A stretch of DNA of 36,383 nucleotides, taken from positions 1 through 36,383 of the IMG/VR virus record IMGVR_UViG_3300033388_002373; one strand, 5' to 3'. This document shows positions 17,901 through 36,383 of the stretch, piece by piece (within the stretch, counting starts at the first letter, position 1; every line of letters starts with the position of its first letter). The position numbers and the translations under genes are program-made. The notes beneath the pieces are model-generated. The model ran no database searches and was not told the DNA's origin. It saw nothing but the letters and a program-made list of their open reading frames with translations. The stretch comes from a virus.

Positions 17901-18197
17901 TTATGTGAATTCCTTATAAAGTTTATCTAAGTCTAAGTCTTGTTCTTGGTCGAAGAAGCCGTGGTACTCCTCAAGCCATGCACTGAAGTCATGGAAGGTG
18001 GAGGTACTTTTACCTGAACGTCTGGCGGCAACAGTTAAATCTGCGCTAGCCTGACGACCATAAGAGATGCTGAATGACTCGGAGGAGGTTACATCACGCC
18101 TCAGAACTTCCATGGCCTCAGCTAAATCGGCGTAAGTGAGTGATGCGGTTGCTGTTGCTGTTGCTGTTGCTGTTGCTAGTCTGCTAACTCCTGGCAT
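17901..18197 (-). CDS. Unknown small protein with Ala-Thr repeat and C-terminal tag
   Basis: 98 residues. Residues 7-18 are an Ala-Thr dipeptide run (ATATATATATA) coded by a perfect hexanucleotide repeat, then a helix (TYADLAEAMEVLRRDV), Ser/Thr-rich middle with RQASADLTVAARRSGKS, and an acidic end LDLDKLYKEFT. The end fits the C-terminal tag shared by many small proteins at 23-36 kb with one extra residue. The AAG GAA codons of Y-K-E also form the SD for clpP. SD AAGGA before its own ATG. No family recognised. Confidence 0.6.
   Translation of the reverse strand: MPGVSRLATATATATATASLTYADLAEAMEVLRRDVTSSESFSISYGRQASADLTVAARRSGKSTSTFHDFSAWLEEYHGFFDQEQDLDLDKLYKEFT
18148..18177. repeat. Hexanucleotide repeat (GTTGCT)x5
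   Basis: Five perfect copies of GTTGCT inside the gene 17901-18197, coding Ala-Thr pairs. Change by one unit keeps the frame, so copy number could vary without breaking the protein. Confidence 0.9.
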
Positions 18198-19477
18198 TAT
18201 ACATCCTTAAATATTTTTGCAACAAATTCTGCAAGGTCTGAGCGGTAAATGTTCTCCAGTTTAATAAAGTTCATTTCAGGAGCCTCACCTAAGTGGTCAT
18301 AGAGGACTTTGAATCCTTCATTACCACGGTTAAGTCCATAGACTTGTCCTGAAGTATCACCCATAAGTACTACCTTAGCACCTTCTGAAGCACGACTTAC
18401 CACCATCTTGAGTGTGTCAGCATCTAGCTTTTGCCACTCATCAACTAATAAAATCTTGTGATGGATACTTGTACCTTGAATCTCATCTATCTCTACGATT
18501 TCAAAGAACTCAAGCCAAGCTTCCTCACTAGGTTTTAAGGCAGGCTCTCCATCTTTCTTTTTCTTCTTCTCCTTATTACGAGGGTCTAGAAGAAACTTAA
18601 GGTTAGATTTAAATCCACCTAAGTGACCACCAAGTTTGTTCTCAGTCTCGCCAGGTTTGAAACCAGTGTACATATTCTTGTTAATACTTTCAGGACTGGC
18701 AGTGATAAGTACTTGGTCATAGAACATGTACCTAGTGTCTCCCTGAACAGTGGCCAAGGCTGCCATAAGGCTAAGCATAGTTTTACCTGTACCAAGCTCA
18801 CCATCAATGATGGTAAGAGGAACTACTGGGTCGAATACCGCATCCAGTACACACATCTGCACAGCATCCTTAGGTTGTACCCCGTGGATACCAGCGGCTG
18901 TATAATGTCCCATCTTCTGAGATACTCTATACATAACTCCTCGAATGTTCTTCCAGATGTCATGCTTCTCATCAGTGATGTGAACAATGAAGTATTCATT
19001 CTCTTTGAAAGTAAGTCCTGTTGCATGAGTAAACTCTTCAACCATGAACTCTTTCTCTTGTTGCATACTATGAGTGTACCAGTCTCCGATGTCTATCTCT
19101 TGATAACCTTTATAGTCATAATCAATTTGACTCTCAGGTTCATAAGCACTGATGTCTACACCATGAGCTTTCGCAATGATACGTACAGCGATGTCATTAC
19201 TTAGGATGGATGCCCCAGCTTCTTTCGTATCTTGAATAATCTTCTCATCTGGGCTTTCGCCTAGTAGGTCAGGTACGTTAAGGATTACAATGTTGTCCTC
19301 ACTATACATAATCCAGATGTTTTTGATTGCAGCTTGAGCAGCACGCTTAAGGTCTGGATTTCTTTTTAGATTATCCAGTTCCCTAATTACTGTGAACGAT
19401 AATACAAATGACCTAGTTTTATCAAACACAATCATAGGCTCATCAATTAAGATGTTAGTATCTAGACTAACTAACAC
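18197..19477 (-). CDS. phoH: PhoH-like ATPase with N-terminal PIN domain
   Basis: 426 residues, of the PIN-PhoH (PhoH2) architecture. Residues 1-110 are a PIN nuclease domain: SLDTNILID (acidic metal site), RELDNLK and LSNDIAVR. Residues 195-426 are the PhoH ATPase: Walker A GELGTGKT (226-233), ILLVDEWQKLD (Walker B), VLMGDTSGQV and a final arginine region. Cellular PhoH2 proteins are RNA-unwinding/degrading enzymes; the phage role is unsettled. The start is GTG 19477, overlapping the upstream gene. Confidence 0.88.
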   Translation of the reverse strand: MLVSLDTNILIDEPMIVFDKTRSFVLSFTVIRELDNLKRNPDLKRAAQAAIKNIWIMYSEDNIVILNVPDLLGESPDEKIIQDTKEAGASILSNDIAVRIIAKAHGVDISAYEPESQIDYDYKGYQEIDIGDWYTHSMQQEKEFMVEEFTHATGLTFKENEYFIVHITDEKHDIWKNIRGVMYRVSQKMGHYTAAGIHGVQPKDAVQMCVLDAVFDPVVPLTIIDGELGTGKTMLSLMAALATVQGDTRYMFYDQVLITASPESINKNMYTGFKPGETENKLGGHLGGFKSNLKFLLDPRNKEKKKKKDGEPALKPSEEAWLEFFEIVEIDEIQGTSIHHKILLVDEWQKLDADTLKMVVSRASEGAKVVLMGDTSGQVYGLNRGNEGFKVLYDHLGEAPEMNFIKLENIYRSDLAEFVAKIFKDV

Positions 19478-19730
19478 GGGACAAATCCATTAATGACGGG
19501 AGGTCATAATCAATAAGCATTAGCTCAAAGTAATGGTTTGGGTCTGTAATTCTATAAACTTCCTTACAAGTTATTGCAAACTCTTGTAGTAAGGTGTTCA
19601 CTGCACCCTCTAAGGTATGGTAGTCAGTTGAATCAAGTGACCATACCTTGTCTGCCAAGGCATCAAAGTCTTCTTCGTAAAAAGACTTTAGGTATTCTAT
19701 ATTTTTATCTTGAGTTTCTAAATCGTCCAT
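19467..19730 (-). CDS. Unknown acidic helical protein
   Basis: 87 residues, strongly acidic and mostly helical (DKNIEYLKSFYEEDFDALADKV, GAVNTLLQEFAITCKEV). It has SD AAGGAG before ATG and ends inside the phoH start. Lying between NrdA and PhoH it may be a small regulator, but nothing in the sequence says so. Confidence 0.6.
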   Translation of the reverse strand: MDDLETQDKNIEYLKSFYEEDFDALADKVWSLDSTDYHTLEGAVNTLLQEFAITCKEVYRITDPNHYFELMLIDYDLPSLMDLSRVS

Positions 19731-19752
19731 TGGACTCCTTATTATTTATCTT

Positions 19753-21483
19753 CTAGCCCTCGCAGGATTCACATACTGATTTAATTGGTTGGATTTTCAT
19801 CGCACCATTCAGTGTTCTTACGTAGTATAATGCAAATATCCAAGGGTCTTTGAATGCTAAGTCATGTAGTCTTGCAATCTCTTCCTCTTTTTCTTCTGCT
19901 GTAAAGTACAAGTTGAGTGACTGACCTTGGTCAAGTCCATTCTTTTGTCTATCTCCAGCCATATGTAAGATAGTCTCTTGGTTTAACTCAAAGGCAGTCT
20001 TGAAAACGTCCTTCTCATGAGGTGTTAACCAATCTTCATCCTGAACTGACCCTTGGTCATCAGCAATTCGTTGCATAACCTCTTCTGTATACTGTCCTCT
20101 ATCCTTCATTAACTTTAGGAAAGGCGGATTGATACGGTAGATTGTACCACCTGCAGTATCCTGCTCGTAAACATTAGCAAACACAGGTTCGATTCCTTGC
20201 GAAACCCCACCAAGAATGATTGCGGTAGACATTGTAGGAGGGAAAGCTAATCTGTGAGAGAATCTTTCACCATAGCCTTTCAGCCATTCAGGTTCTCCAA
20301 CTTCTTTTGCTAACCATCTTGAAGCCTCCAAGGTTTTAGTATTTAAATCTCTAACCAGTTTCTGATTAAACATTCGTGATTGTAGTCCACCAAATACCCA
20401 GCTCTCTTGTTGGTAGTAGGTAGCTTCACCAAGAATTCCTAAGCCTACAGCTCTTGACTTCTCTGTGAAAGCAATGATTCTTTCAAATCCCTCTTCCTGT
20501 CTAGCCTTGATTAACATATCTTCAATCACTGCATCTAGGAATACCATAGCTATCTGAGGTAGGTATGTATCTTTCCAGTCGTTGTACTTAGCCACGTTAA
20601 GAGACGATAGTACACATGTGAATGTGTGGTCTTCATCACTGAACAGGTTAATTTCAGAACATAAGTTAGAACCTTTTACAGTAAAACCTCTGTCCTTATA
20701 CATCTTAGGTCTGTTACGGTTAACTTTATCAACAAAGAAGAAGTAACCTTTCCCTTTAATAAGCTTAGCTCTCATCATCTTCTTCCAGATTCTGTCAGCA
20801 CGCTCAGGGTCATTCTCAAATAACTCGTCAAACTCATCAGTAATATTCCAACCGATGTTCCAACCATCATCATCAGCAATGATTTGGTCAATGAACTCTT
20901 CAAAGTCTTCGTGTAGTGGATTTAAATACATCCCACATGCGCCTCTTCTGGAGGAACCTTGTGTGATTTCTTTCATATCCTGAACTACACCACCAGCAAA
21001 TTGCATAGCACCGTTAGCTGTTCCACCTTTTGAAATTGGTGAACCTCTTGGACGGATAGGGTCAATCACCACTGAGGTGCCGTAGCCTCTCTGTGTTAAC
21101 TGAGCTAACTCCATCCTAGTCTGGTAGTAAGACCTAATAGAATCTCCTACATGAGAACCAGAACATGATACTGGATGCCCTCTGTTGTTACCTAGGTTAG
21201 TAAGAACTGGTGTGGATGGCGATAGCCAACCTTTCCATAGAACATCTAGAAATGCGTCATGCCATGTTGCATAACCAAACTCTTCAGGAATAGCAACAGT
21301 AGTTAATTCTGAAGCTCTATTTGCCAGTCTTGTATACATGGTGAAAGGAGTTTCAGCTACGTCTAAGTAGTTCTTCTCTGTTAGCAGTTGATATCCTGCT
21401 GTTGTTAGCCAGTCTGGTGCTTGACCATTCCGTTGTAATGCCTTCCTTGTGTGGCTTAATTTTTCGTACTTAGTTGTTGACAT
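19753..21483 (-). CDS. nrdA: Ribonucleotide reductase large subunit (class I)
   Basis: 576 residues. Catalytic residues: C107 (GHPVSCSG), N273-L-C275-S-E277 (radical transfer Cys with N and E) and C290 (TCVLSS), with a C-terminal redox pair C571-x-x-C574 (CESCEG). STPVLTN (90-96) is the substrate loop. It reduces NDPs to dNDPs with NrdB, encoded just upstream. It is nearly 200 residues shorter than E. coli NrdA and lacks the N-terminal ATP-cone, so it should escape dATP inhibition, which suits a phage. SD GGAGGG. Confidence 0.92.
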   Translation of the reverse strand: MSTTKYEKLSHTRKALQRNGQAPDWLTTAGYQLLTEKNYLDVAETPFTMYTRLANRASELTTVAIPEEFGYATWHDAFLDVLWKGWLSPSTPVLTNLGNNRGHPVSCSGSHVGDSIRSYYQTRMELAQLTQRGYGTSVVIDPIRPRGSPISKGGTANGAMQFAGGVVQDMKEITQGSSRRGACGMYLNPLHEDFEEFIDQIIADDDGWNIGWNITDEFDELFENDPERADRIWKKMMRAKLIKGKGYFFFVDKVNRNRPKMYKDRGFTVKGSNLCSEINLFSDEDHTFTCVLSSLNVAKYNDWKDTYLPQIAMVFLDAVIEDMLIKARQEEGFERIIAFTEKSRAVGLGILGEATYYQQESWVFGGLQSRMFNQKLVRDLNTKTLEASRWLAKEVGEPEWLKGYGERFSHRLAFPPTMSTAIILGGVSQGIEPVFANVYEQDTAGGTIYRINPPFLKLMKDRGQYTEEVMQRIADDQGSVQDEDWLTPHEKDVFKTAFELNQETILHMAGDRQKNGLDQGQSLNLYFTAEEKEEEIARLHDLAFKDPWIFALYYVRTLNGAMKIQPIKSVCESCEG

Positions 21484-22483
21484 GTCCCTCCTTCAAATGC
21501 GGCAGTCTTGTTAAAGCTTCTGATGACCAACCCCGTCTATAGGAACTGGTGCCTGACACAAAGAAATCGTGAAGTTTGATAGACTTAGCTCCTTTATAGA
21601 ACCAATTTGCAATAGGGTTGTCTGTAATATTATAGACCATTGGAAGTCCTAAGTCGTGAAGGACTTGGTCAACTCTAGAGAATATAAATGATATCAACTG
21701 GTCTGCAGTAATATCATTAATGGAGTCTACACCTTGGAATAAGAACTGAATTACTGCCAGTTCATGTGTTACAATCTCATCGACTACATCCATAACATCC
21801 ATGGTATGCTCTTCAATATCTAAAGAGTCGAGGTTTCTCTCCTCCATAAGTGTGTTGTGTAAAAAGCTTGCAGCTACTCCATGTAGTTGCTCATCTTGCA
21901 CCACAAAGTCCACACCAGTAATAGTGTTCGTTATTAGGTTATGACCATTGGCTTGGAATGATTTCAGCATAGCAAAGTTGCTGAATAATAATACCTGCTC
22001 TATCAATGCTACAGTTGCTAAGGATAGCATCTTATTTTCGCCTAGGTTTTTGGTAATATCTTTTATAAGAGCCAGCTTATTCTTCAACACCGCTATATTC
22101 TCTTGGTCTTTTGCTATTGTTTCTGGGTCAATGTTCATCTCATCTGACATCTTCTGGTAGAAGAAAGCGTGAACTGATTTCTCCATACTGGCAAACTGTG
22201 AACACAAACCTTCAATCTCTGAGTGTGGAAACCATGTCTCTATTTCAGACCATACATTACCTACATCCCGTTCTAACTCAACGAATGTGGTTAACGTGGT
22301 TGAACATAAGGCATACTGCTCAGGTGACATAACATGTCTAAAGTCATGAATGTCTTTCTCTACTGGAATCTCTTTGGCAGTCCAGTAAATATCCTGTTGC
22401 TTTTCCATTATCTCAAGTGCCGTTGGGTATTTATAATCCCCAAAGTGGCTCGGTGTTTCTAGTGGTAGTGACAATTTATCCAT
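21470..22483 (-). CDS. nrdB: Ribonucleotide reductase small subunit (class I)
   Basis: 337 residues, ferritin-like. Metal ligands and radical Tyr: FVELERDVG, MEKSVHAFFY (E101, H105, Y109; spacing H+4 as in E. coli H118/Y122) and VVQDEQLH (E, H). The C-terminal tail (RLPHLKEGHVNN) is the part that docks to NrdA. It holds the tyrosyl radical used by NrdA. The nrdA start overlaps its 3' end by 14 bases; SD GGAGG. Confidence 0.92.
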   Translation of the reverse strand: MDKLSLPLETPSHFGDYKYPTALEIMEKQQDIYWTAKEIPVEKDIHDFRHVMSPEQYALCSTTLTTFVELERDVGNVWSEIETWFPHSEIEGLCSQFASMEKSVHAFFYQKMSDEMNIDPETIAKDQENIAVLKNKLALIKDITKNLGENKMLSLATVALIEQVLLFSNFAMLKSFQANGHNLITNTITGVDFVVQDEQLHGVAASFLHNTLMEERNLDSLDIEEHTMDVMDVVDEIVTHELAVIQFLFQGVDSINDITADQLISFIFSRVDQVLHDLGLPMVYNITDNPIANWFYKGAKSIKLHDFFVSGTSSYRRGWSSEALTRLPHLKEGHVNN

Positions 22484-22607
22484 TGTCCTCCTTCATATTG
22501 TATTTAAATAACCAGTTGTAGCATTCTTTCAGCCAGTGTTCGTCACTATATACTATATACTCTAGGATATACATGGATACAACCAGAGCATCGTATAAAT
22601 TATGCAT
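22476..22607 (-). CDS. 43-residue protein upstream of nrdB
   Basis: Frame MHNLYDALVVSMYILEYIVY followed by a charged, aromatic tail ending MKEDNG. ATG 22607 lies within the end of the MazG-like gene and the stop overlaps the nrdB ATG; the last codons AAG GAG GAC are the nrdB SD. It fills the gap exactly, so it is probably translated. The N-terminal 20 residues are hydrophobic and helical, perhaps membrane-associated. No SD stronger than GGTATAG was seen. Confidence 0.5.
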   Translation of the reverse strand: MHNLYDALVVSMYILEYIVYSDEHWLKECYNWLFKYNMKEDNG

Positions 22608-23001: not shown

Positions 23002-23049
23002 TCTTCTCCTTTAATATGACGGACTTACAATCTTTAAGAATGCCATCGG

Positions 23050-23346
23050 TTACTGAGAGGTCTTCCATTCTATAGGAACAGCCTTAAGCCATACCTGACA
23101 TAGTATAGGATTTCCCTTGCCATGAATCCTGAGTTGAGACTTTGGTATCCATTTCTCAAAGCCTTCGTACTCTAGTAACATTGCCTTATCAGTCTCTGCT
23201 ACAACCTTCAGAGATATCAAAGCACTATGGTAGTAATCGTGGTCTTTAATACGAGTTCCTCCACTATATCCAGGACTTCTACTGTCTCCACCGCAATGCA
23301 GGTGTTGCTCATGTGCATCTAATTCATGGTCAAAGCAATCACTCAT
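23050..23346 (-). CDS. Unknown protein with WIPKSQ domain
   Basis: 98 residues. N-terminal His/Cys/Asp cluster (CFDHELDAHEQHLHCGGD) that could bind metal, then strands ISLKVVAETDKAMLLEY and EKWIPKSQLRI; the 'W-[VI]-P-K-S-Q' strand is a widespread phage domain of unknown function. Its ATG follows the Lar-like gene stop as TGATG. Confidence 0.55.
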   Translation of the reverse strand: MSDCFDHELDAHEQHLHCGGDSRSPGYSGGTRIKDHDYYHSALISLKVVAETDKAMLLEYEGFEKWIPKSQLRIHGKGNPILCQVWLKAVPIEWKTSQ

Positions 23347-23606
23347 CAGAAACTCGCATACAATTCTCGGACATCAATGCCACTATCCATACGGATGTTC
23401 CATACAGTTATTGCACTGGCTTTGGACTTAGGAGCACCACTACCTATGGCACCGCATCCACCCTTAAGCCAGGAGCAGATTATAATTCCTCGGCGTTCCC
23501 CGACATCCTCGGTGATGCCCATCATCTCTCTAAACTCATCCTCACTCATGTACTTAGGTGCGTTACTACTGCCACAAAATGGGCACGGTTTTAATTCTTC
23601 TTTCAT
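23346..23606 (-). CDS. Lar-like restriction alleviation protein, tagged
   Basis: 86 residues. N-terminal LKPCPFCGSS and IIICSWLKGGCGAIGSG, then SKASAITVWNIRM; this matches the zinc-ribbon fold of Lar-like phage proteins (C-P-F-C-G ... C-x-x-C-G-A ... A-x-x-x-W-N). Family members relieve host restriction or have unknown roles. The C-terminus is DVRELYASF, one of the tag-bearing ends. SD AAGGA before ATG 23606. Confidence 0.65.
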   Translation of the reverse strand: MKEELKPCPFCGSSNAPKYMSEDEFREMMGITEDVGERRGIIICSWLKGGCGAIGSGAPKSKASAITVWNIRMDSGIDVRELYASF

Positions 23607-23649
23607 ATGTTTTCCTTATTTTGGTCACATCTAAACCCCCTAAGGAGGC

Positions 23650-24818: not shown

Positions 24819-25062
24819 CTAGCTGCCTCCAGTGATACATAAAGTTTGTTACTAGAAGTCCTGCAGTGAATGGTACTAATAGCCAAATAGCCATAGTAAC
24901 TGCCATAGGGTCATGACATGCTAATCCTATAACTAGTATTATCAACCCGACCACAACAGTAGTTACGCAAAACTGGTTGGCATTCTTTACACTGGTGTCT
25001 GGTATCCCTGTCCAACTGAATGGTCTAAACAACCATAGTAGTTTTAGAAAAAACGATATCAT
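24808..25062 (-). CDS. Two-TM membrane protein
   Basis: 84 residues with two clear membrane helices, about 32-48 (VTTVVVGLIILVIGLAC) and 54-75 (VTMAIWLLVPFTAGLLVTNFMY), and an amphipathic, aromatic N-terminus (FFLKLLWLFRPFSW). Ends in RQLDER. SD AGGAG; the stop overlaps the thyX start. It could be an inner-membrane-acting early protein; no family recognised. Confidence 0.6.
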   Translation of the reverse strand: MISFFLKLLWLFRPFSWTGIPDTSVKNANQFCVTTVVVGLIILVIGLACHDPMAVTMAIWLLVPFTAGLLVTNFMYHWRQLDER

Positions 25063-25565
25063 GTGAAACTCCTAAAAACATATACAGAATTCTTAGTGCA
25101 GATAGTTATTTGTAAACCATCCGCAGTATTCTTGTAGTTTATATCTGAGATATCCGAAGTGTGGAAGGTATCTCCCATCTCCATCTCCCACCAAGCTTGT
25201 CGTTTATAAAATTCCTTATATAAGTTTTGTAAGTTAACACCTGAGCTTGTATGTCCCATAAACTCTGCTTTGGTTAGTAACTCGTGATGCGAAGAAGGGT
25301 TATCTATCATGTAAGTGACCACACGATTGGGGTGGAATGTGACTTCCACATACTTAGTACTAGTGTCGTAACTTTGGGCGAATAGTTTTATGAATTGACT
25401 CTTATCACGTTTCTTGCCGTGGAAATCTGCACGGAAATCTTCTCTTGTATTTACTTCCTGCTGTTTACGCATCCAATCCCATGCTCTGCCAAGCACTTCC
25501 TCACGCTCATCAGTACTACCGACAGGTATAATGTACTTACGCCCCTTGTCTAATGCCTTAAGCAT
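25059..25565 (-). CDS. Unknown 168-residue protein
   Basis: Lys/Arg-rich N-terminal helix (REEVLGRAWDWMRKQQEV), strands (YVEVTFHPNRVVTYMID), then VNLQNLYKEFYKRQAW and a C-terminal beta part (GLQITICTKNSVYVFRSF). The NLQNLYKEF segment is like the C-terminal tag of other genes but internal. The start ATG is nested in the sigma-factor stop (tATGCTTAA), so it is coupled to it. Role unknown; it may act with the sigma factor. Confidence 0.55.
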   Translation of the reverse strand: MLKALDKGRKYIIPVGSTDEREEVLGRAWDWMRKQQEVNTREDFRADFHGKKRDKSQFIKLFAQSYDTSTKYVEVTFHPNRVVTYMIDNPSSHHELLTKAEFMGHTSSGVNLQNLYKEFYKRQAWWEMEMGDTFHTSDISDINYKNTADGLQITICTKNSVYVFRSFT

Positions 25566-26235
25566 AATCTAGCATACTTTCTTTAAGTTTACTTAGGGCT
25601 CTGTCGTGAATAGACTGTAAGGCAGACTTAGTGATACATAGGTAGTTCATCGCAAATGCCTCTGCAGTTTCTTCAGGAACATCTCCGTACATTAATGAGA
25701 TAACACTAGCTTCTAAGTCATCTAAGTCTTCTAAGAAGTCAAGGGGGCTAAGCACTTCCTTGTCTCCTAGAGAGGATACGTAGTCTTCTGATAAAGCTTC
25801 TAGGCTAACTTGTTGGGTCTTACCGTAGTAAATCTCTTTTACAGTACCTGCCTCGTAACCTGTGCCTTCACTGATGATAGCTACTTGTGGGTACGTCCCA
25901 TGTTTACTTTCATAATCCTTTACAAAAGTCTTAATGTCTTTGTACGAATCAGTGCTTCTATCTACTGGAACAAACTCACGGAATGCCTTAGCCTTCAATG
26001 GTCGGTTAATGAATGTATAAAAACTAGTTCCACGGCTCTTGTCAAACTTCTTTTCTAACTTACAAGCTTCAAGAAGAAGTACCTGAAAGAAATCTTCGTA
26101 AGTATCTACGGCATGGTTGGTGGACATTTGAAAGCTAAGCTTCTTTGCTAATCCAAAGATACCATTCAAGTACTGTGCCGTTAGTGGGTTGGAGTCTTGA
26201 AGACCCTTTGCGATATCATCTAGTTGTTTATTCAT
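25558..26235 (-). CDS. Sigma-70 family transcription factor
   Basis: 225 residues with the order of a small sigma factor. Region 2-like: EDFFQVLLLEACKLEKKFDKSRGTSFYTF at about 46-74 (the K-F-D-x-x-R-G-x-x-F-x-T-F pattern). Region 3-like: TYPQVAIISEGTGYEAGTVKEI, followed by VSLEALSED. Region 4-like: LEASVISLMYGDVPEETAEAFA and a recognition helix ending IHDRALSKLKESM. It would direct host RNA polymerase to phage late or middle promoters. The GGGTATAAT promoters in this window are candidates but could be host-sigma read. SD GAGGA. Confidence 0.75.
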   Translation of the reverse strand: MNKQLDDIAKGLQDSNPLTAQYLNGIFGLAKKLSFQMSTNHAVDTYEDFFQVLLLEACKLEKKFDKSRGTSFYTFINRPLKAKAFREFVPVDRSTDSYKDIKTFVKDYESKHGTYPQVAIISEGTGYEAGTVKEIYYGKTQQVSLEALSEDYVSSLGDKEVLSPLDFLEDLDDLEASVISLMYGDVPEETAEAFAMNYLCITKSALQSIHDRALSKLKESMLDYA

Positions 26236-26489: not shown

Positions 26490-26497
26490 ATGTTTCC

Positions 26498-26773
26498 TTA
26501 AAATTGATTGTAAATTGTTTCTAAATCTACTCCGTACATAAATGTGGAGTAGGTTACCTTCTCACAGTTTGCTTTATTGTCGTCTTCTGTCCAGCACCAG
26601 TATACGTACCTACTTTGTGAACCATCATCAAACATATGGTCTATCTGTTTTCTTATGAAGTGGTCAACACTCCCCCTCGGTAGTTGGCTTCCACCAGATA
26701 GTTTATCGTATAAGTCTTGGAGTTTCTCCACAGTCATCGGTGGAATATCAATGATATGTAAATTTCTTACCAT
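26498..26773 (-). CDS. Unknown tag-bearing small protein
   Basis: 91 residues. Begins with a strand (LHIIDIPPMTVEKLQDLYDKL), has basic loops (RGSVDHFIRKQIDHM) and aromatic strands (RYVYWCWTEDDNK), and ends GVDLETIYNQF, a strict form of the tag. It is likely a distant paralogue of the next gene upstream (26773): both have an N-terminal 'I-P' strand, an acidic W-rich strand and the tag. The tag here does not overlap the next gene's SD or ATG, showing that it is not just a by-product of gene junctions. Confidence 0.65.
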   Translation of the reverse strand: MVRNLHIIDIPPMTVEKLQDLYDKLSGGSQLPRGSVDHFIRKQIDHMFDDGSQSRYVYWCWTEDDNKANCEKVTYSTFMYGVDLETIYNQF

Positions 26774-27099
26774 CAGAACTCACCATACAAAGAGTCCAAA
26801 GACAACTCATTATAAAACTTAACGAGAAACTCTTGGTAAGTCAGTACTGTATTCCTAGGATGTGACCAGTCCTCCCAGAACCAGTCTTCATCATCGTCTA
26901 AGTCTCCAGCATCCCCCATTGAAAGAAGTGCATCTGGTTCTATCTCTCTAGTACGGTTACATACTCTACGAAACCATTCCTCTTCTCCAAGCTCTGCCTC
27001 CACTATTGCAGGGTCTTGGAGGATATCAATTACTTTAGCAACTGCTTCCTGAGTTCTGGGTATATGTGTTATAGTATAACATCTAAGCGTCTCCCCCAT
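26773..27099 (-). CDS. Unknown acidic tag-bearing small protein
   Basis: 108 residues. N-terminal strand-helix (YTITHIPRTQEAVAKVIDIL), a very acidic loop (GDAGDLDDDEDWFWEDW), then TVLTYQEFLVKFYNE and the tag SLDSLYGEF. The acidic W-rich loop resembles a similar strand in the 26498 protein. The gene's start lies inside the polymerase 3' end with GGAG SD. No function known. Confidence 0.65.
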   Translation of the reverse strand: MGETLRCYTITHIPRTQEAVAKVIDILQDPAIVEAELGEEEWFRRVCNRTREIEPDALLSMGDAGDLDDDEDWFWEDWSHPRNTVLTYQEFLVKFYNELSLDSLYGEF

Positions 27100-29667: not shown

Positions 29668-29675
29668 ATATCTCC

Positions 29676-29906
29676 TTATATGCTCGAATTAAATACTTCA
29701 ATCTTGTATGACTGAATGTCTTCTTGTACTGTGTACTTTGTACCAGCTACTAACTTGCTTAATGCAATAAAAATGTCATCCACAGTAGACTGCTCAGCGT
29801 TGATAGTTATTGCTAACCTATCTATTGAGAAATCTGCGGATGTCTTATTTAAATAATCACAAACCTTAGTGATTACTTTATTATTGTAATCAATCTTACG
29901 TGCCAT
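29676..29906 (-). CDS. Small winged-helix-like protein
   Basis: 76 residues. The helix-turn-helix-like section KVITKVCDYLNKT, FSIDRLAITINAEQSTVDDI, ALSKLVAG is followed by a strand pair (TKYTVQEDIQSYKIEVF), which would fit a winged helix DNA-binding domain. This is inference from helix pattern. SD AAGGAG is coded by the tag of the upstream gene. A possible transcription regulator. Confidence 0.5.
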   Translation of the reverse strand: MARKIDYNNKVITKVCDYLNKTSADFSIDRLAITINAEQSTVDDIFIALSKLVAGTKYTVQEDIQSYKIEVFNSSI

Positions 29907-30211
29907 TAGAACTCCTTATATATAGATTCTATGTTAATTTCACTGTACGCCATAGAGAAGTGGAAATGATGACTGGTATCCTCAATGGTGAATGTATTCT
30001 CAAGCCAACTATTAATATCCTCAACTATGAATATTTGCCCTGAAGCCCTATTCATTGAGTTTACCAATCCGAAATATCCGTCATACTTCGGATGAGAAAT
30101 TCGACCATCGTCGTCATAAGCATCTTCCACCACTTCCCATCCTTCGGCAATAAGAACAGTAATAGGCTTAATTTTAATTACCTGCCCTACTGCTATATTA
30201 TTAAAACTCAC
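29906..30211 (-). CDS. SH3-like (KOW-type) small protein with tag
   Basis: 101 residues, GTG start at 30211 with SD GGAGG in the upstream tag. VGQVIKIKPITVLIAEGWEVVEDA then a DDDGRISHPKYDGYFG loop, and final strands (GQIFIVEDINS, HHFHFSMAYSE). Belongs to the paralogous group at 29.9-32.6 kb whose members start with a 'F-x-x-G-x-x-[IV]-[RK]-[VI]' strand. It ends INIESIYKEF; the K-E codons AAG GAG are the SD of the next gene. Confidence 0.65.
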   Translation of the reverse strand: MSFNNIAVGQVIKIKPITVLIAEGWEVVEDAYDDDGRISHPKYDGYFGLVNSMNRASGQIFIVEDINSWLENTFTIEDTSHHFHFSMAYSEINIESIYKEF

Positions 30212-30488
30212 TGTACACCTCCTCCATGAAAGTTACTTCTTTCTTAATCATACATTCCCAAAATGTCCATCCACCACCACTTAAGGCGGTGAATCTCCTC
30301 CCAGTTCTGGGGTCTGCTGATGACTCATAATCTAGAAACTCATGTATTATCATCTTCCTCCCCAAATATGCGAACATTTCGGTTGGGACATAACAACTAT
30401 AGAAATCCAAGTCACCATCATCGGTTACCCTCCAACCATCTGCAATAAGCTCTTCCTTGGTTTTTATCATTACTTTATCAAAAGTCAT
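30201..30488 (-). CDS. Small paralogous protein with tag
   Basis: 95 residues. MIKTKEELIADGWRVTDD (aligned with KIKPITVLIAEGWEVVED in the gene at 29906), middle GRKMIIHEFLDYE, and WTFWECMIKKEV before the tag FMEEVYSEF. The conserved 'T-x-E-E-L-x-x-x-G-W' start and the 'W-x-[FW]-E-x-M/L' strand make it a paralogue of 29906, 31532, 31779 and 32044. The GAG GAG GTG codons of the tag form the SD of the next GTG start. Confidence 0.65.
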   Translation of the reverse strand: MTFDKVMIKTKEELIADGWRVTDDGDLDFYSCYVPTEMFAYLGRKMIIHEFLDYESSADPRTGRRFTALSGGGWTFWECMIKKEVTFMEEVYSEF

Positions 30489-31051: not shown

Positions 31052-31262
31052 TGGAAAACTCTCGTAGATTTTTCTGATATAGCTCTAGTGCATTTATACG
31101 ATAATTATCATTTATAGAACCATCCTGAATTATTACGCTTTTCAGTTGCTGTACCATACTTCTGTACAAGGGCACGGCCTTTAGCTCTGACATAGCTGAT
31201 AATTCTGCTGGGCTCACTTGGAGCAACTCTTTGAGGTTTGGTTGTTTTTGTTGGAAGTTCAT
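31041..31262 (-). CDS. Unknown small helical protein
   Basis: 73 residues from ATG 31262 (NFQQKQPNLKELLQ), which has AGGAG six bases before it; the upstream ATG has none. Mostly helical and charged (LYRSMVQQLKSVII, YRINALELYQKNLREF), ends SSVS. Its first 155 bases overlap, in another frame, the 3' extension of the gene 31108-31545. The good SD suggests it is the older gene of the two here. Role unknown. Confidence 0.55.
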   Translation of the reverse strand: MNFQQKQPNLKELLQVSPAELSAMSELKAVPLYRSMVQQLKSVIIQDGSINDNYRINALELYQKNLREFSSVS

Positions 31263-31545
31263 ATGTTTCTCCTGAAGTAAATTCTTCATATATTTTTGAT
31301 ATATCTAAGGGATTGTTCCCTAAGTTCTCTAAGTGCTTTTGTAATGCACGACGTTTTGTTGGAGTGTAATCTCCAGCACTATGGTATACTCTTTGTAGCT
31401 CTTTAGCCATTCCGGGTTTAAATACTGACCCTTCTGGTGCATGCTCATCAAACATTTCAAAAAACCATACGGATACCTGTGAAAACTCTTCCCGTATGTC
31501 ATCTGGTAGGTTTCTAAATTTCCGACGTACGCTAGAAATCCCCAT
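31108..31545 (-). CDS. Tag-bearing protein whose stop was lost, with overprinted tail
   Basis: 145 residues. Residues 1-89 are like its neighbours: helical, charged, ending LDISKIYEEF, a strict tag. Then comes T90 and S91 coded by TCA (31275-31273), one base from TAA; the tagged gene at 17901 reads ...YKEFT-stop at this very place. A 55-residue basic, Ser/Pro/Lys-rich tail (ETYELPTKTTKPQRVAPSE and onward) follows and overlaps the 31041-31262 gene out of frame. I infer a stop-loss mutation. N-terminal function unknown. Confidence 0.6.
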   Translation of the reverse strand: MGISSVRRKFRNLPDDIREEFSQVSVWFFEMFDEHAPEGSVFKPGMAKELQRVYHSAGDYTPTKRRALQKHLENLGNNPLDISKIYEEFTSGETYELPTKTTKPQRVAPSEPSRIISYVRAKGRALVQKYGTATEKRNNSGWFYK

Positions 31546-31798
31546 AGATAACTCCTATATCTACATGGTTAGCGTAAACTACCTCGTACGGTGCAAATGT
31601 ACGATTCTGCTTACGAACCGTTATATAGACTGGGAAATCTGGGTCTTTACTCATCTTACTTATAACTCTTACTGTGTTTGCATAGCTGGCCGCATATCCC
31701 ATATACCCATCTAGCTCTTCAGGAGTAAGAGTGCTGCGAGCCTCTTCCAGGGTCTTTACTCGAATCTTATCACCCTTCTTAAAAGTTGGCATATACAT
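31532..31798 (-). CDS. SH3-like small protein with tag
   Basis: 88 residues starting MPTFKKGDKIRVKTLEEA (annotated here from 31798; the ATG is nested in the upstream tag's Tyr codon). A central helix with GYMGYAASYANTV and strands VYITVRKQNRTFAPYEVVY lead to the tag VDIGVIYGDF. The start is almost identical to that of the next protein (31779), so the two are recent paralogues. KOW/SH3-like proteins often bind nucleic acids or RNA polymerase; not shown here. Confidence 0.65.
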   Translation of the reverse strand: MYMPTFKKGDKIRVKTLEEARSTLTPEELDGYMGYAASYANTVRVISKMSKDPDFPVYITVRKQNRTFAPYEVVYANHVDIGVIYGDF

Positions 31799-32057
31799 CC
31801 TTTATATCGACTTGAGAAATAAGCTCTAGTTCCCAAGGTGCGCATTGGAGTCTTTCTCCACCAAGGGTTAAAGTATATGGATAGTCAGACATACTCTTAT
31901 TTATATAAGAAATCTTTCTCTTTTTTCCAAAGTATGCTGAATACTCACCTAGGTAATTCTGAATATCAGTGTCCGAATAGCCGTGTTTTGGCAACTCATG
32001 AATTATCTGCTCCATACTCCGTACCCTTACGTAGTCACCCTTCTTAAAAGTTGGCAT
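31779..32057 (-). CDS. SH3-like small protein with tag
   Basis: 92 residues, MPTFKKGDYVRVRSMEQI, then GYSDTDIQNYLGEYSAYFGKKRKISYI, YTLTLGGERLQCAPWELELI and tag VDIKDVYANF. Paralogue of 31532 and 32044. The tag codons GTA TAT GCC contain the ATG of the next gene (tATGCC), an overlap of 20 bases. Confidence 0.65.
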   Translation of the reverse strand: MPTFKKGDYVRVRSMEQIIHELPKHGYSDTDIQNYLGEYSAYFGKKRKISYINKSMSDYPYTLTLGGERLQCAPWELELISQVDIKDVYANF

Positions 32058-32301
32058 TATAAATATCCTCTACATACCCTTCAACAATTGGTTCTAGCAT
32101 TTCATGTGTCCAGTTTAGTGAGAATTCCTTAATAAGGTATTTATCATTTGGAGTTACTCTACGAATAGTCACAACAGTGCCTGCAAGGTGCTCCATCTCA
32201 CCCACAAAGGTGTCTTGCCCAACTGCGGGGTAGTAAGGAAACTTTTTGAGAGCTTCTATAGTCTTTACCCTTACCTTTTGTCCAACTTTAAAATGTTGCA
32301 T
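32044..32301 (-). CDS. SH3-like small protein with tag
   Basis: 85 residues, MQHFKVGQKVRVKTIEALKK, an AGTVVTIRRVTPNDKYLI strand pair, SLNWTHEMLEPIVEG and the tag YVEDIYNANF, with an extra residue before the last F. Paralogue of 31532 and 31779. ATG is nested in the Tyr codon of the upstream tag (AAGGATATATATG is both K-D-I-Y and SD plus start). Confidence 0.65.
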   Translation of the reverse strand: MQHFKVGQKVRVKTIEALKKFPYYPAVGQDTFVGEMEHLAGTVVTIRRVTPNDKYLIKEFSLNWTHEMLEPIVEGYVEDIYNANF

Positions 32302-32572
32302 ATATATCCTTTAGTGGGTCTTCTGGTATTACTTCAAACTCATCTATATATAGATGAACAATTCCTGTACTCAGCAGCAAATTCATCGAACCTTCTCCAG
32401 TCTCCAAACCCTCCTGCAATCTAGCAGTCATTGGAACTCTGTGGGTGGTTCCCATAGCCTTGCCGTAGTGTCCAGCATCATTCGCTAACCACAACGATTC
32501 CATGGTGTCGCTTCCTGCGGAATCATACAGCTCTGTTAGCTCATCTTTGTTTTTCACCCGAATTGTTATCAT
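32288..32572 (-). CDS. Small beta-rich protein with tag
   Basis: 94 residues, ATG 32572 deep in the helicase 3' end with SD AAGGAG. ITIRVKNKDELTELYDS, then GSDTMESLWLANDAGHYGKAMG, MNLLLSTGIVHLYIDEFEV and tag PLKDIYATF. The start 'I-R-V-K-N-K-D-E-L' is like the 'V-R-V-K-T-x-E' start of the other SH3-like proteins without the F-K-x-G turn. A more distant member of the group. Confidence 0.6.
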   Translation of the reverse strand: MITIRVKNKDELTELYDSAGSDTMESLWLANDAGHYGKAMGTTHRVPMTARLQEGLETGEGSMNLLLSTGIVHLYIDEFEVIPEDPLKDIYATF

Positions 32573-33890
32573 ATACCAACTCCTTAAGTTGTGCTTTTAT
32601 TGCGTCTGTCTTACCAAATGACAGTCTACCAGTTTTACGGTATCGTTTCATTCTAATCTTACCACCATAGGCAAGACTTCCTTCTATTGCAAAGTCGAAC
32701 CACAGCACTGATTGTGTCTTTTTGAACGGTGCAGGTCTTTTCAGACGACCTTCTTGTTGTTCAAGCAACTCTTGGCTTGAACTATTAGGCATAATTCTGA
32801 ATGAAAAGCCTAGTTCAGGAATAGAAATACCTGCAGATAATGGGGCAGACCCTAATAAGAATCTACACTCACCACTAGCAACAGCTTCAAGTATCCTTTT
32901 ACGTTCCTTCTTTGTGGTATTTCCTCTAATCACTTCTGATTGTAGACCTACTTCAGCAAGCATTGCAACCATCATGTCCTGAAACTTAAGTGAATCTATA
33001 ATTATCCAAGTACAACCATAAAACTTAACTAGTTCAACACAGAGTGACACGACATCCCTAGGTATTGAACTTCTCATAAAGAACTTAGTTAAGGCTGGTT
33101 TATACATCATCTTGGATTGAGGTGACATAAATCTTAGATGTCGATAATCTAGCATTACATACTTAGGTTCTATCTCAGTGTCAGGAATCATCTCAACCTT
33201 ATTGTCTCCAACTAAGAAACCAATCATAGGTGTTCGTCCTGTAAGTTCCTTGCTAGGAGTAGCACTCATAAGTAATTGGTACTTAGGGTTAAGTTTTAAG
33301 TAAATATTAAGTCTACTTTTAGTCAGTAAGTTTTCACACTCATCAACTACAACGAAACCAATCTCTTCTTTAAGTCTGTCCACTAATTGTGGGTTAGCCA
33401 TAAGATACTGGAATGTACAGATATTCACATCTCCAAGTTCTGGTTCTTTGCCAGACAGTATAACTACTGAGCCTGCAAGATTATCACTAAGCTCACCATG
33501 CATCTGGTCTACTAGCATACCTAGGTGAGCCAGAACTAGTGTTCTTTGCCCAACTCCTTGAATTACATAGCCTAACGAGAAACTCTTTCCTGACCCCGTC
33601 TTTGCAGTAAGTAGGCATTCTCCTCTGTCACCACTTAGGGTTTTAATCATACCGCCAACAGGCTCTACTTGATAATCTCTAAGTGAGAATGTTGAAGATA
33701 CTTTAATACTAATAGGGCTGTCTACTAAAGACATTCGTCCTTGTTCAATAGTTGGTGTATGTCTCGGCAGAGTCATAGTACCATCTGTGTTTAGAAGGTA
33801 GCCCTTAAATTCTTCAAGTGGTTCAAATGGGTTTGGGAATGATAGTATCTTATCAATACTATCATTAAATGGAATGTTAGAAGTTTGCAT
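32541..33890 (-). CDS. SF2 DNA helicase (T5 D10 type)
   Basis: 449 residues. Motif Q-like LRDYQVEPV (70-78), Walker A AKTGSGKS (96-103), DECE (183-186), SATP (209-212), and the second RecA-like domain with WIIIDSLKFQ, RGNTTKKERKRILEA, LGSAPLSAGISIPEL and QQEGRLKRP (motif VI). It is like UvsW and T5 D10, which remodel replication forks and branched DNA. ATG is nested in the tag of the gene upstream. The enzyme itself lacks the tag. Confidence 0.85.
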   Translation of the reverse strand: MQTSNIPFNDSIDKILSFPNPFEPLEEFKGYLLNTDGTMTLPRHTPTIEQGRMSLVDSPISIKVSSTFSLRDYQVEPVGGMIKTLSGDRGECLLTAKTGSGKSFSLGYVIQGVGQRTLVLAHLGMLVDQMHGELSDNLAGSVVILSGKEPELGDVNICTFQYLMANPQLVDRLKEEIGFVVVDECENLLTKSRLNIYLKLNPKYQLLMSATPSKELTGRTPMIGFLVGDNKVEMIPDTEIEPKYVMLDYRHLRFMSPQSKMMYKPALTKFFMRSSIPRDVVSLCVELVKFYGCTWIIIDSLKFQDMMVAMLAEVGLQSEVIRGNTTKKERKRILEAVASGECRFLLGSAPLSAGISIPELGFSFRIMPNSSSQELLEQQEGRLKRPAPFKKTQSVLWFDFAIEGSLAYGGKIRMKRYRKTGRLSFGKTDAIKAQLKELVYDNNSGEKQR

Positions 33891-34143
33891 ATATCTCTTT
33901 TAGGTTTGTTTTTGAGTCATAGTAAGGCTCAGAGTTTTCTGGTGGAACAGGTGCAGAATGTGAGTTACCACTGGATGGGTTGTATTTATTAATGTAGTAT
34001 ATTGTACCTTCTGGAAGAACTCTCAGCCCTAATAGGGATTTCTTTATTGCATAAGACGTTAAGAGTTTGGGGTTTTCCATATAGTATTGTCTTACTTCAT
34101 CAAGGTCACGAAAGCTCCAATAACGGATGTAACTAGAGGTCAT
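33877..34143 (-). CDS. Unknown tag-bearing small protein
   Basis: 88 residues from ATG 34143 (TSSYIRYWSFRDLDEVRQYY), which lies in the Tyr codon of the upstream tag and has GGAGG before it; a longer frame to 34248 is not supported. Segments RVLPEGTIYYINKY and NSHSAPVPPENSEP lead to the tag SKTNLKEIYANF. The 'Y-W-S-F-R-D-L-D-E-V' start matches 'WWGFRTPQELRIF' of the next gene, so the two are paralogues. Confidence 0.65.
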   Translation of the reverse strand: MTSSYIRYWSFRDLDEVRQYYMENPKLLTSYAIKKSLLGLRVLPEGTIYYINKYNPSSGNSHSAPVPPENSEPYYDSKTNLKEIYANF

Positions 34144-34381
34144 AGATTGCCTCCATATCAAAGAGTGGCTCTTTAAAGTAGAACTCAAAGCTACCCTCAT
34201 CACCTCGGTAGAATTGAGAGGTTGTAACACCACTTTTTCTAACTCCAAAGGCTATCATGCTTTTCCATTCTCTGGTACCTGCTAACCATCCACGAGAATT
34301 TCCTGAATTAGGATACCCGTTTCTTTCTTTGAAAATACGAAGCTCCTGAGGAGTTCTAAACCCCCACCAGTTATAGTCCAT
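34133..34381 (-). CDS. Unknown tag-bearing small protein
   Basis: 82 residues, MDYNWWGFRTPQELRIFKER, then GWLAGTREWKSMIAFGVRKSG and aromatic strands (GSFEFYFKEP), ending FDMEAIYDL, a form of the tag with L in the last position. The ATG is nested in the tag of 34371. Paralogue of 33877. Confidence 0.65.
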   Translation of the reverse strand: MDYNWWGFRTPQELRIFKERNGYPNSGNSRGWLAGTREWKSMIAFGVRKSGVTTSQFYRGDEGSFEFYFKEPLFDMEAIYDL

Positions 34382-34628
34382 AGATAGCGCTCATGTCAAC
34401 TGCTGGGAAGTATTCTACAAAACTCTTGGGATGAGGGCCTATAGATATATCTTTTAAGTGAGTACGCTGACATGTACCATTCTCATTTATTACAACAAAC
34501 AGATGGAAGAAGTCACCATAAACTCCTGACACAGTTAGTATAACTCTAGGTGACGTTGCAACTTCTGGGTACTTAAGACCCAGTGACTCAACTGCTGCGA
34601 TTGATGTGACTAGATAAGTTACAGCCAT
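34371..34628 (-). CDS. Unknown tag-bearing small protein
   Basis: 85 residues, strand-rich (TYLVTSIAAVES, PRVILTVSGVYGDFFHLFVVIN), then THLKDISIGPHPKS and tag VDMSAIYGL, the shortest tag seen (last residue L). SD GGAGG. An SH3-like or KOW-like fold is possible from the strands. The Tyr codon of the tag contains the next ATG. Confidence 0.6.
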   Translation of the reverse strand: MAVTYLVTSIAAVESLGLKYPEVATSPRVILTVSGVYGDFFHLFVVINENGTCQRTHLKDISIGPHPKSFVEYFPAVDMSAIYGL

Positions 34629-35113
34629 GAAGCCTCCTTTTTCATTCTAAGCTTTAAGGTAGTTGGAATCTCTATGCCATATCTCTGAGTAAAATCAGTA
34701 ATAGTAAGAGGCGTCTCAAGAATTACAAGTACCTCTCTAGAACTATAGTAATCCAATAGTGATACTAAAAGTCTGGTGGAGAATTCAAAGTTCTTGGCAC
34801 GTTCATTCCCAATCCCATGGACAACAATAGAGCTTACCTTTGAGGGTAAACGGCTATCTGTGTCGTCTGCAAATTGTGACTCGTAGTACTCTGTAAAAGA
34901 GATACCAAAAGTCTTTCTTCCCATTTCCCACAACTGGTTAATAATCGGTCCTGCAGACCCACTAATTAGCAGTTGTCCTTTATCAGGAGCCTTATAGATA
35001 CTATCTGTAAGACTCTTAATTCTGGTCTTTGGCATATCGGATTTATCGTAGTCTTCTCCAAGATACCTTACAGGCAGTCGGAGAGCTTGGTAGATACTTG
35101 AAGTTGGTAACAT
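34619..35113 (-). CDS. Degenerate AAA+ / DnaC-like protein
   Basis: 164 residues. The layout LPVRYLGEDYDKSD, then GQLLISGSAGPIINQLWEM, SSIVVHGIGNER and LLDYYSSREVLVILETPLTITDFTQRYG matches helicase-loader ATPases of the DnaC/IstB type (core strand, Walker A, Walker B, a 'pt-l-i-T-T-N' strand and Y-G). But Walker A is destroyed (no GKT/S) and Walker B has no acidic pair. It may be an ATP-independent loader or a scaffold. It is 0.7 kb from the D10-like helicase; T5 D11 is in this type of position. Weak assignment. Confidence 0.4.
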   Translation of the reverse strand: MLPTSSIYQALRLPVRYLGEDYDKSDMPKTRIKSLTDSIYKAPDKGQLLISGSAGPIINQLWEMGRKTFGISFTEYYESQFADDTDSRLPSKVSSIVVHGIGNERAKNFEFSTRLLVSLLDYYSSREVLVILETPLTITDFTQRYGIEIPTTLKLRMKKEASWL

Positions 35114-35445
35114 TAAAATTCCTTATAGATGTCTAATATAAATGGGGTTGCTGTTAAAGCTTTGTAAGCGTCTTGGAAACTAATAGAATTCTCAGAGTAT
35201 TCTGGTTGTTCACGTGACTGAGACACTCTACAGAATTCGTTATTAAAACTAATGTAGAGTCTGCATTCTGAGTATCTGAAGAGAGAAGCATATCCCTCTT
35301 CATTCTCCGTACCATACGAGGCAAAGCTGAAGTTCTCAAGCTGTATTTTGTAAAGTAACCTGATAATAATCTGAGCTTCTTCCTTTGACTTACACCATAT
35401 AGGCTTTTCGGAGGAAGCCGCTCTTACCCAATTTACTGGAGTCAT
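35113..35445 (-). CDS. Unknown tag-bearing small protein
   Basis: 110 residues with a helix (SKEEAQIIIRLLYKIQLE), strands (SFASYGTENEEGYASLFRYSECRLYISF) and a polar loop with SQSREQPEYSENS, ending FILDIYKEF. The KEF codons AAG GAA TTT followed by TAATG form the SD and start of the next gene. No family recognised. Confidence 0.6.
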   Translation of the reverse strand: MTPVNWVRAASSEKPIWCKSKEEAQIIIRLLYKIQLENFSFASYGTENEEGYASLFRYSECRLYISFNNEFCRVSQSREQPEYSENSISFQDAYKALTATPFILDIYKEF

Positions 35446-35666
35446 AAAAATTCCTTATATACCTCTGTTAAATCCAGGACAGTATCTATGAAAAAGATGT
35501 CATTCCAGTTGAAAGACCCAAAGTCTGTCCCACCAAGAAGGGGGTACATACCAGAGTTAACATATACGCTTTTTATATTTGCTGGTGGGTGTAACGTGAA
35601 TTCTATCGAGTGATTGTAAGTGAACCCAAGAGCTAGTAGCTCCTTGGCAGTCCTAAGCCGTCTCAC
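35442..35666 (-). CDS. Unknown tag-bearing small protein
   Basis: 74 residues from GTG 35666 (RRLRTAKELLALGFTYNHS); this start is chosen because the 'T-A-K-E-L-L-A-x-G-F/W' segment aligns with the N-terminus of the paralogues at 30201 and 29906. Longer starts at ATG 35711 or 35801 have no good SD. Then EFTLHPPANIKSVYVNSG, WNDIFFIDTV and the tag LDLTEVYKEFL with one extra residue. It overlaps the GluRS-like stop. Start confidence is low, gene confidence moderate. Confidence 0.6.
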   Translation of the reverse strand: MRRLRTAKELLALGFTYNHSIEFTLHPPANIKSVYVNSGMYPLLGGTDFGSFNWNDIFFIDTVLDLTEVYKEFL

Positions 35667-36383
35667 AAAGAAGTGCTTCGAGTGGGGGCGTTTGCTTACC
35701 TTCCAGCACATCCTTTCGGAATTGTTTACAAGCAGGGATAGAGAACTTTTTCTTACGAAGTGATGCGATATCTTTTTCTCTGTCTGTAACATGCTTGCCA
35801 AATTGTGAACACAGTACTCTTAGTTCGACGATTGTCTTACATCTTGATTTAAAGGCATCAACCCATAGTGGATTATACGTTTCACCGTATAATTCCTCCA
35901 TGTGGGAGTTCAATGTTTCAGCAGAAGACTTGACCATGTGAAGCCCATTTATAAATCTTAACATATGTTCAGAGAATGCAGTATCATTTCTTCGTAGCTT
36001 GTTCACGTCATACGCTTTAACAATCTCACCAATATTTAAGGCTTCCGAAGTGGGGATACTTTTGTTCCCTAAAGATAGTACAGATTGCATAACAGCATCT
36101 TTTAAGAAACCTTGGGCTTTGTAATCCAGAATACTTTTCGTATCTTCGTTTCTCTTACTAAGCTTCTCATTAAGAGAACCAAGAACAAGAGGAAGATGCG
36201 CGTAATTTACAGTAGCCTTAGGCATACCTGTTGCATAATGAATTGCTTCACGAAGTGCTATCTGTGGTGCGGTCTGAGTAATAATATCAGCCCCACGAGC
36301 CACAAAGTCAACACCTGCAAGCATATCATCAAGCGTGTTTGCCAGAATGTACGTTGCCGTACCATCAGCACGCTGAATAACAG
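35653..36383 (-). CDS. Glutamyl-tRNA synthetase-like protein, C-terminal part (partial)
   Basis: The frame continues past the window edge, so only 242 residues are visible. They begin VIQRADGTATYILANTLDDM, the catalytic-domain strand of GluRS ('q-R-a-D-G-x-x-x-Y'), followed by FVARGADIITQT, NYAHLPLVLGSLNEKLSKRN (KMSKS-like K-L-S-K-R at about 80-84), DYKAQGFLKDAVMQSVLSLG and KAYDVNKLRRNDTAFSEHMLRFING, as in the stem-contact fold of bacterial GluRS. The end part is helical and shorter than in full GluRS, so the anticodon-binding region may be reduced or divergent. RGAD (usually RGED in GluRS) is also the wording of GluQ-RS. A phage-coded enzyme of this kind is unusual. Confidence 0.75.
   Translation of the reverse strand, partial: VIQRADGTATYILANTLDDMLAGVDFVARGADIITQTAPQIALREAIHYATGMPKATVNYAHLPLVLGSLNEKLSKRNEDTKSILDYKAQGFLKDAVMQSVLSLGNKSIPTSEALNIGEIVKAYDVNKLRRNDTAFSEHMLRFINGLHMVKSSAETLNSHMEELYGETYNPLWVDAFKSRCKTIVELRVLCSQFGKHVTDREKDIASLRKKKFSIPACKQFRKDVLEGKQTPPLEALLCETA

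Follow-up and report, generated by a model that had tools for sequence, protein, structure and literature searches.

A C-terminal motif with genome-specific variants on many small proteins of two related phages suggests a common docking partner

Fifteen small proteins encoded on a 36,383-nucleotide stretch of phage DNA (IMG/VR record IMGVR_UViG_3300033388_002373; hereafter the window) end in a shared motif built around a tyrosine, a sixteenth carries it internally, and a related phage, G016, bears its own variant of the motif on 20 small proteins. This tag is probably a modular short linear motif that docks its carriers to one shared, putative partner. The window phage is distantly T5-like. 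Window proteins are named by w plus coordinate and G016 proteins by g plus coordinate (e.g., w26498 and g74778), and the following features of the window are considered here:

35442 to 35801, minus strand: tagged small protein ending in VLDLTEVYKEFL
35113 to 35445, minus strand: tagged small protein ending in FILDIYKEF
34371 to 34628, minus strand: tagged small protein ending in VDMSAIYGL, without F at +3; the next ATG lies in the Tyr codon
34133 to 34381, minus strand: tagged small protein ending in FDMEAIYDL, without F at +3; the next ATG lies in the Tyr codon
33877 to 34143, minus strand: tagged small protein (88 aa; reassigned start, most likely the ATG at 34143) ending in TNLKEIYANF; the helicase ATG lies in the Tyr codon
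32288 to 32572, minus strand: tagged small protein ending in DPLKDIYATF; the next ATG lies in the Tyr codon
32044 to 32301, minus strand: tagged SH3-like protein ending in GYVEDIYNANF
31779 to 32057, minus strand: tagged SH3-like paralogue ending in VDIKDVYANF
31532 to 31798, minus strand: tagged SH3-like paralogue ending in VDIGVIYGDF
31108 to 31545, minus strand: internally tagged protein with LDISKIYEEF at residues 80-89 of 145 (nt 31279-31308)
30201 to 30488, minus strand: tagged small protein ending in TFMEEVYSEF; Tyr codon TAC
29906 to 30211, minus strand: tagged small protein, paralogue of w30201, ending in INIESIYKEF
26773 to 27099, minus strand: tagged acidic protein ending in LSLDSLYGEF; its G016 homologue is tagged too
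26498 to 26773, minus strand: tagged small protein ending in VDLETIYNQF; Tyr codon TAC
23346 to 23606, minus strand: tagged zinc ribbon protein of the Lar (restriction alleviation) type, with IDVRELYASF at residues 77-86
17901 to 18197, minus strand: tagged small protein ending in LDLDKLYKEFT; the next ORF starts 45 nt past the stop
7165 to 7467, minus strand: untagged 100-aa protein, candidate common partner by co-occurrence

The C-termini and 15 stop-codon coordinates that the initial annotation had given for these proteins are all correct, with the minus strand throughout, and all 15 C-termini fit h-[D/N/S/P]-[ILVM]-x-x-[ILV]-Y-x-x-F, exactly or nearly. When the 15 tags are aligned on the tyrosine, Y, [ILV] at -1 and [LIMV] at -4 are present in every one (15/15 each), followed by F at +3 (12/15) and by D at -5 and an acidic residue at -2 (8/15 each). 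The motif is thus real, but the consensus first proposed for it, D-h-x-x-[ILV]-Y-x-[END]-F, was too strict and the actual one is looser: w34133 and w34371 have F-less ends (..IYDL and ..IYGL), and the tag of w32044 contains an additional residue. Of the 31 small window proteins (130 aa or less), 12 match the pattern [ILVM]xx[ILV]Yx(0-4)-stop, where shuffling predicts 0.47 (never more than 4 in 1000 shuffles), around 25 times the shuffled frequency; of the 30 large ones, 1 matches. Inspection of the C-termini of the window polymerase, helicase, ThyX, NrdAB and ligase found the motif in none of these enzymes, as the annotation had observed; the polymerases of the window and of G016 end in ..HIKEILDGGDA and ..AEIKEILSKS, respectively. 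The tag can also be internal, as first described for w31108, which continues for 56 residues past it. A further internal match in 25059-25565 was down-weighted because it adjoins a weak KTSC-domain match, to which it may belong.

G016 is a syntenic 93.8-kb IMG/VR phage contig with 66% (polymerase) and 69% (DnaB) identity to the window, and its 20 tagged small proteins show the variant [S/N/A]-P-L-K-[E/G]-I-Y-[G/E/D]. Both phages share the core L-x-x-[IL]-Y, whereas the flanks differ by genome, with D and the +3 F in the window and P at -5 and a short tail without +3 F in G016. Flank type tracks the genome and not the protein family: homologous carriers display their own genome's variant among the SH3-like proteins (w31532/w31779/w32044 versus g85458/g74778), for w26498/w26773 versus g90028, and for w31108 versus g85202, its weak homologue that stops just past the tag. 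Some window-G016 homologies are weak, with uncorrected p values of 0.002-0.0055 on tag-less bodies. Each of the two related phages therefore has its own genome-wide motif variant. Some small orthologue pairs are untagged in both genomes (w29676/g86501, w7165/g19413, w5539/g20632 and w19467/g6813). Tracking the tag in G016 also revealed an overlooked ORF.

The initial annotation had proposed a search of other T5-like phages. The motif is at null level in 50-kb stretches of Ceto and T5 as well as in the more distant relatives G014 and G009-G011, and a general T5-like trait was rejected on this basis. Three IMG/VR scans with tag DNA gave 21, 35 and 5 hits and found the tag set in the G016 contig only, and two scans of genome contigs found no tagged relative. 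Carriers are thus known from two phages only, both of them metagenome contigs.

With tags removed, the 36 carriers of the window and G016 fall into about 23 sequence groups, including the Lar zinc ribbon. Their description as unrelated therefore holds across groups but not for the three SH3-like window paralogues (w31532/w31779/w32044) or for w29906/w30201; G016 adds g69642/g69910/g70431 and g70166/g70648/g70943. Because many carriers are paralogues, the tag was gained independently fewer than 36 times. The same paralogues favor the view that every carrier derives by divergence from a single ancestral gene whose tail is best conserved, without any shared partner. We consider common descent alone improbable given the number of sequence groups, the tagged Lar zinc ribbon, and the segregation of flanks by genome rather than family, which descent alone leaves unexplained. 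The putative antirestriction protein w23346 matches PF14354 (Lar) over residues 3-72 at 36.4 bits (cut-off 28.6), and its tag follows behind the end of this match at residue 72. The SH3-like w32044 matches phrog_7488 (4.5e-9) and, weakly, PF18346 (Mib-repeat SH3), with Mind bomb repeats as best but weak Foldseek matches (E 0.14); here the matched region ends before the tag.

Over half of the tags share nucleotides with the start codon of the following gene. One alternative is that the motif is a by-product of gene junctions, in which a translational coupling element (the SD AAGGAG plus ATG) in the upstream gene's end is read in the upstream frame. The Tyr codon indeed forms the next ATG in tags of both phages (6 in the window, at least 13 in G016), and K-E and G-E codons in tags often provide the next SD; given this overlap, part of the conservation at the x positions (K-E, G-E) is SD sequence. 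Nevertheless, this explanation is very unlikely. At least 14 tags have a Tyr codon that does not make the next start codon, five of them with TAC, and identical tag residues share codons at about the frequency expected from codon usage (0.418 versus 0.405 and 0.409 versus 0.346, inside the 95% range). The constraint hence acts on the protein and is no by-product of gene overlap. Tags without a junction role are found on w17901, w26498, g70943, g72748, g74778, g75421 and g90395: w26498 keeps the motif with the next gene's SD and ATG both past its stop, as the initial annotation had pointed out, and g70943, g72748 and g75421 end far from the next gene. The copy in w31108 is internal, the +3 F and the -5 D or P have no junction role, and gene overlaps in G014 and Ceto yield no tag. 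Junctions were rejected as the full cause on the basis of codon identity, the choice between Tyr codons and these non-junction tags, as was a DNA-level boundary or recombination element, codon identity being at the null. Two outcomes named beforehand as counterevidence were thus absent: conservation is not at the nucleotide level only, and g74778, an SH3-like homologue at another locus without an overlapping gene, keeps the motif and ends in SPLTNIY. The reading as a protein-level short linear motif, supported by the codon null, the non-junction tags, g74778 and the 20 proteins of G016, therefore holds, though not as a trait of T5-like phages in general.

The tag shows the conservation at the protein level on unrelated carriers that characterizes a docking motif; the helical binding mode, single partner and purpose that follow are inferred. 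Around one and a half helix turns would present L/I/V at position i and, on the same face, [ILV]-Y at i+3 and i+4. The carriers, small accessory proteins that evolve fast, would display this helix on a flexible tail separate from their folded body, and one common partner that binds the tags would bring phage proteins with no other relationship together at a single site. The AF2 model of w32044, the one carrier modelled, has an SH3-like body mostly at pLDDT 75-87; in the tag, which includes a helix of four residues, pLDDT is under 50. Hydrophobic C-terminal tails can also act as protease signals, and the tag might accordingly be recognized by a protease adaptor of the host as a signal for degradation or quality control; we regard this as highly improbable, since the final positions differ among tags (G, D, E, A, K, T, H, F, L) while the internal core is fixed, and w31108 keeps its copy internally.

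A special case of docking, with scaffold, portal or capsid as partner, would be a capsid-targeting sequence at the C-terminus, through which small proteins enter the prohead for injection with the DNA. Terminal targeting sequences are used by P1 DarB and the internal proteins of T4 (PMC9024508), and these are likewise terminal peptides by which varied small or antirestriction proteins reach a single structure; the Lar-type carrier w23346 is plausible injected cargo, and L028, a contig whose NrdA is related, encodes at least 10 small proteins, mostly in tandem, that share an N-terminal M[LI]RE[IA][VLI] resembling such a signal. Packaging nonetheless seems unlikely: the known signals are N-terminal whereas the tag is C-terminal or internal, P1 Dar proteins have no common consensus (PMC9024508), the neighbours of the tagged genes are replication and accessory genes rather than head genes, and the G016 capsid, portal and protease proteins carry no tag.

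For docking to a common partner, the joint change of flanks on each genome's carriers makes a phage-encoded or fast-diverging partner more likely than a conserved host protein. Tentatively, such a receptor might recruit a large set of small accessory proteins whose membership changes fast, including antidefence proteins, via L-x-x-[IL]-Y, the receptor and tails having co-diverged between the two phages. A speculative candidate, by co-occurrence, is the 7165-7467 protein, which is 64% identical in G016 and was found at no other locus compared; its AF2 model is poor (pLDDT 45.7) and not interpretable. The sliding clamp was rejected as partner since PF02916 and PF02768 matched nothing in the window or in G016 and G014, records that may be incomplete, and the 8250-8978 protein and its G016 homologue were rejected as clamps, with a CxxC-type motif and no PDB or family match. 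A literature search for shared C-terminal motifs of small phage proteins returned T4 and capsid-targeting analogues only. The T4 sliding-clamp-binding motif is found on three transcription and replication proteins (gp43, gp55 and gp33) including the replicative polymerase, whereas here 15-20 small accessory proteins carry the tag and the polymerases of both phages do not; the T4 system uses a phage clamp, whereas no gp45-type or DnaN-type clamp was detected in the stretches examined.

Both phages tag many proteins, each with its own version, which suggests a common, putative partner as the docking site of numerous fast-changing phage proteins. Most small early genes of large phages are without known function, and a common address label would put dozens of them at one partner, testable as a set. 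The label also aids gene finding, as the ORF exposed in G016 illustrates, and its genome-wide change from one phage to its relative suggests that label and partner co-evolved, which offers a handle for finding the partner.

The initial annotation had described a C-terminal tag shared by at least 15 unrelated small proteins, and all 15 of these C-termini indeed lie at the stop codons assigned to them, every one on the minus strand; the internal copy of the motif noted in w31108 is also present (window proteins, w, are named by their stop coordinate, and those of the related contig G016 carry a g). When lined up by their tyrosines, the tags of the window give the consensus [VLI]-[DNS..]-[LIMV]-x-[DE..]-[ILV]-Y-x-x-F, with the tyrosine and the hydrophobic residues at −1 and −4 invariant in class in 15/15, phenylalanine at +3 in 12/15 and aspartate at −5 in 8/15. 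The pattern occurs in 12 of 31 small window proteins, compared with 0.47 in shuffles, and in 1 of 30 larger ones. A tag-like VNLQNLYKEF also stands at residues 110–119 of a protein with a weak KTSC-domain match (25059–25565, minus strand), where it may be native to that domain.

The window, a complete virus record of 36,383 bases but probably a genome fragment, has a distantly T5-like replication module (family-A polymerase, primase, DnaB, SbcCD-like genes, flap exonuclease, NrdAB, PhoH, and ligase) and no close DNA match among 50,697 phage records. Contigs found through their NrdA (64–78% identical to that of the window) had no tag within flanks of up to 10 kb. The window helicase led to G016, a syntenic IMG/VR contig of 93,817 bases (polymerase 66%, DnaB 69%, helicase 57%, and SSB 59% identical), and the syntenic G014 is more distant (polymerase 39%, helicase 45%). 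Tag frequency was at the shuffled level in G014, in the parts of Vibrio phage Ceto and T5 that were covered (50 kb of Ceto and the first 50 kb of T5), and in three further relatives; ORF calls were mechanical, and the two tag-carrying phages are both metagenomic. Further genes of these two genomes are listed here (L174 gives coordinates of G016 counterparts).

Other genes of the window and G016
Window 35653–36324, minus strand: catalytic domain (PF00749) of a Glu/Gln-type class I tRNA synthetase; the contig ends here and includes the C-terminal half
L174 7604–8833, plus strand: tRNA synthetase of the same type (PF00749) in G016, 180.7 bits, intact, 409 aa
Window 25558–26235, minus strand, and L174 16753–17427, plus strand: conserved protein resembling sigma-70 region 2, encoded close to thyX; may be a phage sigma factor

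G016 also encodes a large unannotated protein (519 aa) next to an M28-like peptidase (587 aa) at 77395–80750.

Small proteins of G016 end in KPLKEVYG, SPIKDIYEK, APLKEIYG (twice), NPLKEIYG, KPLGGLYD, SPLKGIYESK, SILKGIYD, SPLTNIY, and others. Nineteen such tags were detected directly, with proline at −5 in 9/19, leucine at −4 in 17/19, and usually one residue past the tyrosine; tracing a start codon within a tag exposed a twentieth, on a missed ORF (70943–71200) ending in EPLSKIYELR. Both genomes share the core L-x-x-[IL]-Y, and the flanks go by genome: −5 D and +3 F in the window, −5 P, −4 L, and a short tail in G016.

Stripped of their tags, the 36 carriers formed about 23 groups in local alignments, and 12 of these groups have members in the window. 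The carriers are thus unrelated only in part: w31532, w31779, and w32044 are SH3-like paralogues and w29906 and w30201 are related, while w23346 is a Lar zinc ribbon (scoring over the Pfam cut-off) whose tag comes after the domain, and others lack detectable similarity. Homologous carriers each bear the variant of their own genome, though some cross-phage homologies are weak and their p-values carry no multiple-test correction. Tags are present on both SH3-like w32044 and g85458, on w26498, w26773, and their counterpart g90028 (weak homology), and on w31108 and g85202 (weak homology), of which g85202 stops just past the tag and w31108 continues for 56 residues. The SH3-like homologue g74778 keeps its tag at a different locus with no overlapping gene. 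Where a small conserved protein has no tag, this holds for both phages (w29676/g86501, w7165/g19413, w5539/g20632, and w19467/g6813).

Gene junctions, proposed at the outset as a partial cause, do play a part: in 6 window and at least 13 G016 tags, a TAT tyrosine codon plus G supplies the start ATG of the following gene, and the next SD often lies within the K-E or G-E codons. The remaining tags are not explained in this way. In at least 14 the tyrosine codon is not used as a start, and in five of these it is TAC (w26498, w30201, g72748, g74778, and g83308). The next start is clear of the tag for w26498 and w17901, none follows g70943 and g72748 for about 50–250 nt, and an inverted repeat of terminator-like appearance comes after g75421. 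Identical residues at −5 to −1 share codons at 0.418 in the window versus 0.405 predicted by codon usage, and at 0.409 versus 0.346 (95% range 0.282–0.435) in G016. Codon sharing is therefore not above prediction, and the constraint is at the protein, not the nucleotide, level.

As for function, which we infer throughout, the i, i+3, i+4 spacing would line up L, I/L, and Y along a single side of a short helix, and the tag probably docks the carriers onto one putative common partner. An AlphaFold model of w32044 shows a fairly confident SH3-like body and a flexible tag, which contains a four-residue helix and has a pLDDT below 50. The closest known parallel is the hydrophobic and acidic C-terminal sliding-clamp motif common to T4 gp43, gp55, and gp33, which is interchangeable and functional internally (PMC2988020, PMC7892883). 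The tag is like it in kind; however, searches of the window, G016, and G014 turned up no clamp of the gp45 or DnaN type, and the window polymerase has no tag. The other analogue is the capsid-targeting sequence of T4 internal proteins and P1 DarB, which unlike the tag is N-terminal (PMC9024508). Packaging of the tagged proteins is still a live rival because of this analogue and an apparent N-terminal set in contig L028: about ten mostly tandem small proteins (14073–18501, plus strand) share M[LI]RE[IA][VLI]xx, seemingly resembling a T4-type capsid-targeting sequence, with fewer in L031 and L029 (NrdA of such contigs is 69–74% identical to that of the window).

For docking onto a common partner, a candidate by co-occurrence only is the 100-residue protein at 7165–7467 (minus strand), encoded between the SSB and SbcD-like genes, whose G016 homologue is 64% identical and which appeared in no other locus compared; its structure model was not interpretable. 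The parallel change of flanks on many dispersed genes without nucleotide similarity is what would be expected from co-evolution with one trans-acting partner.
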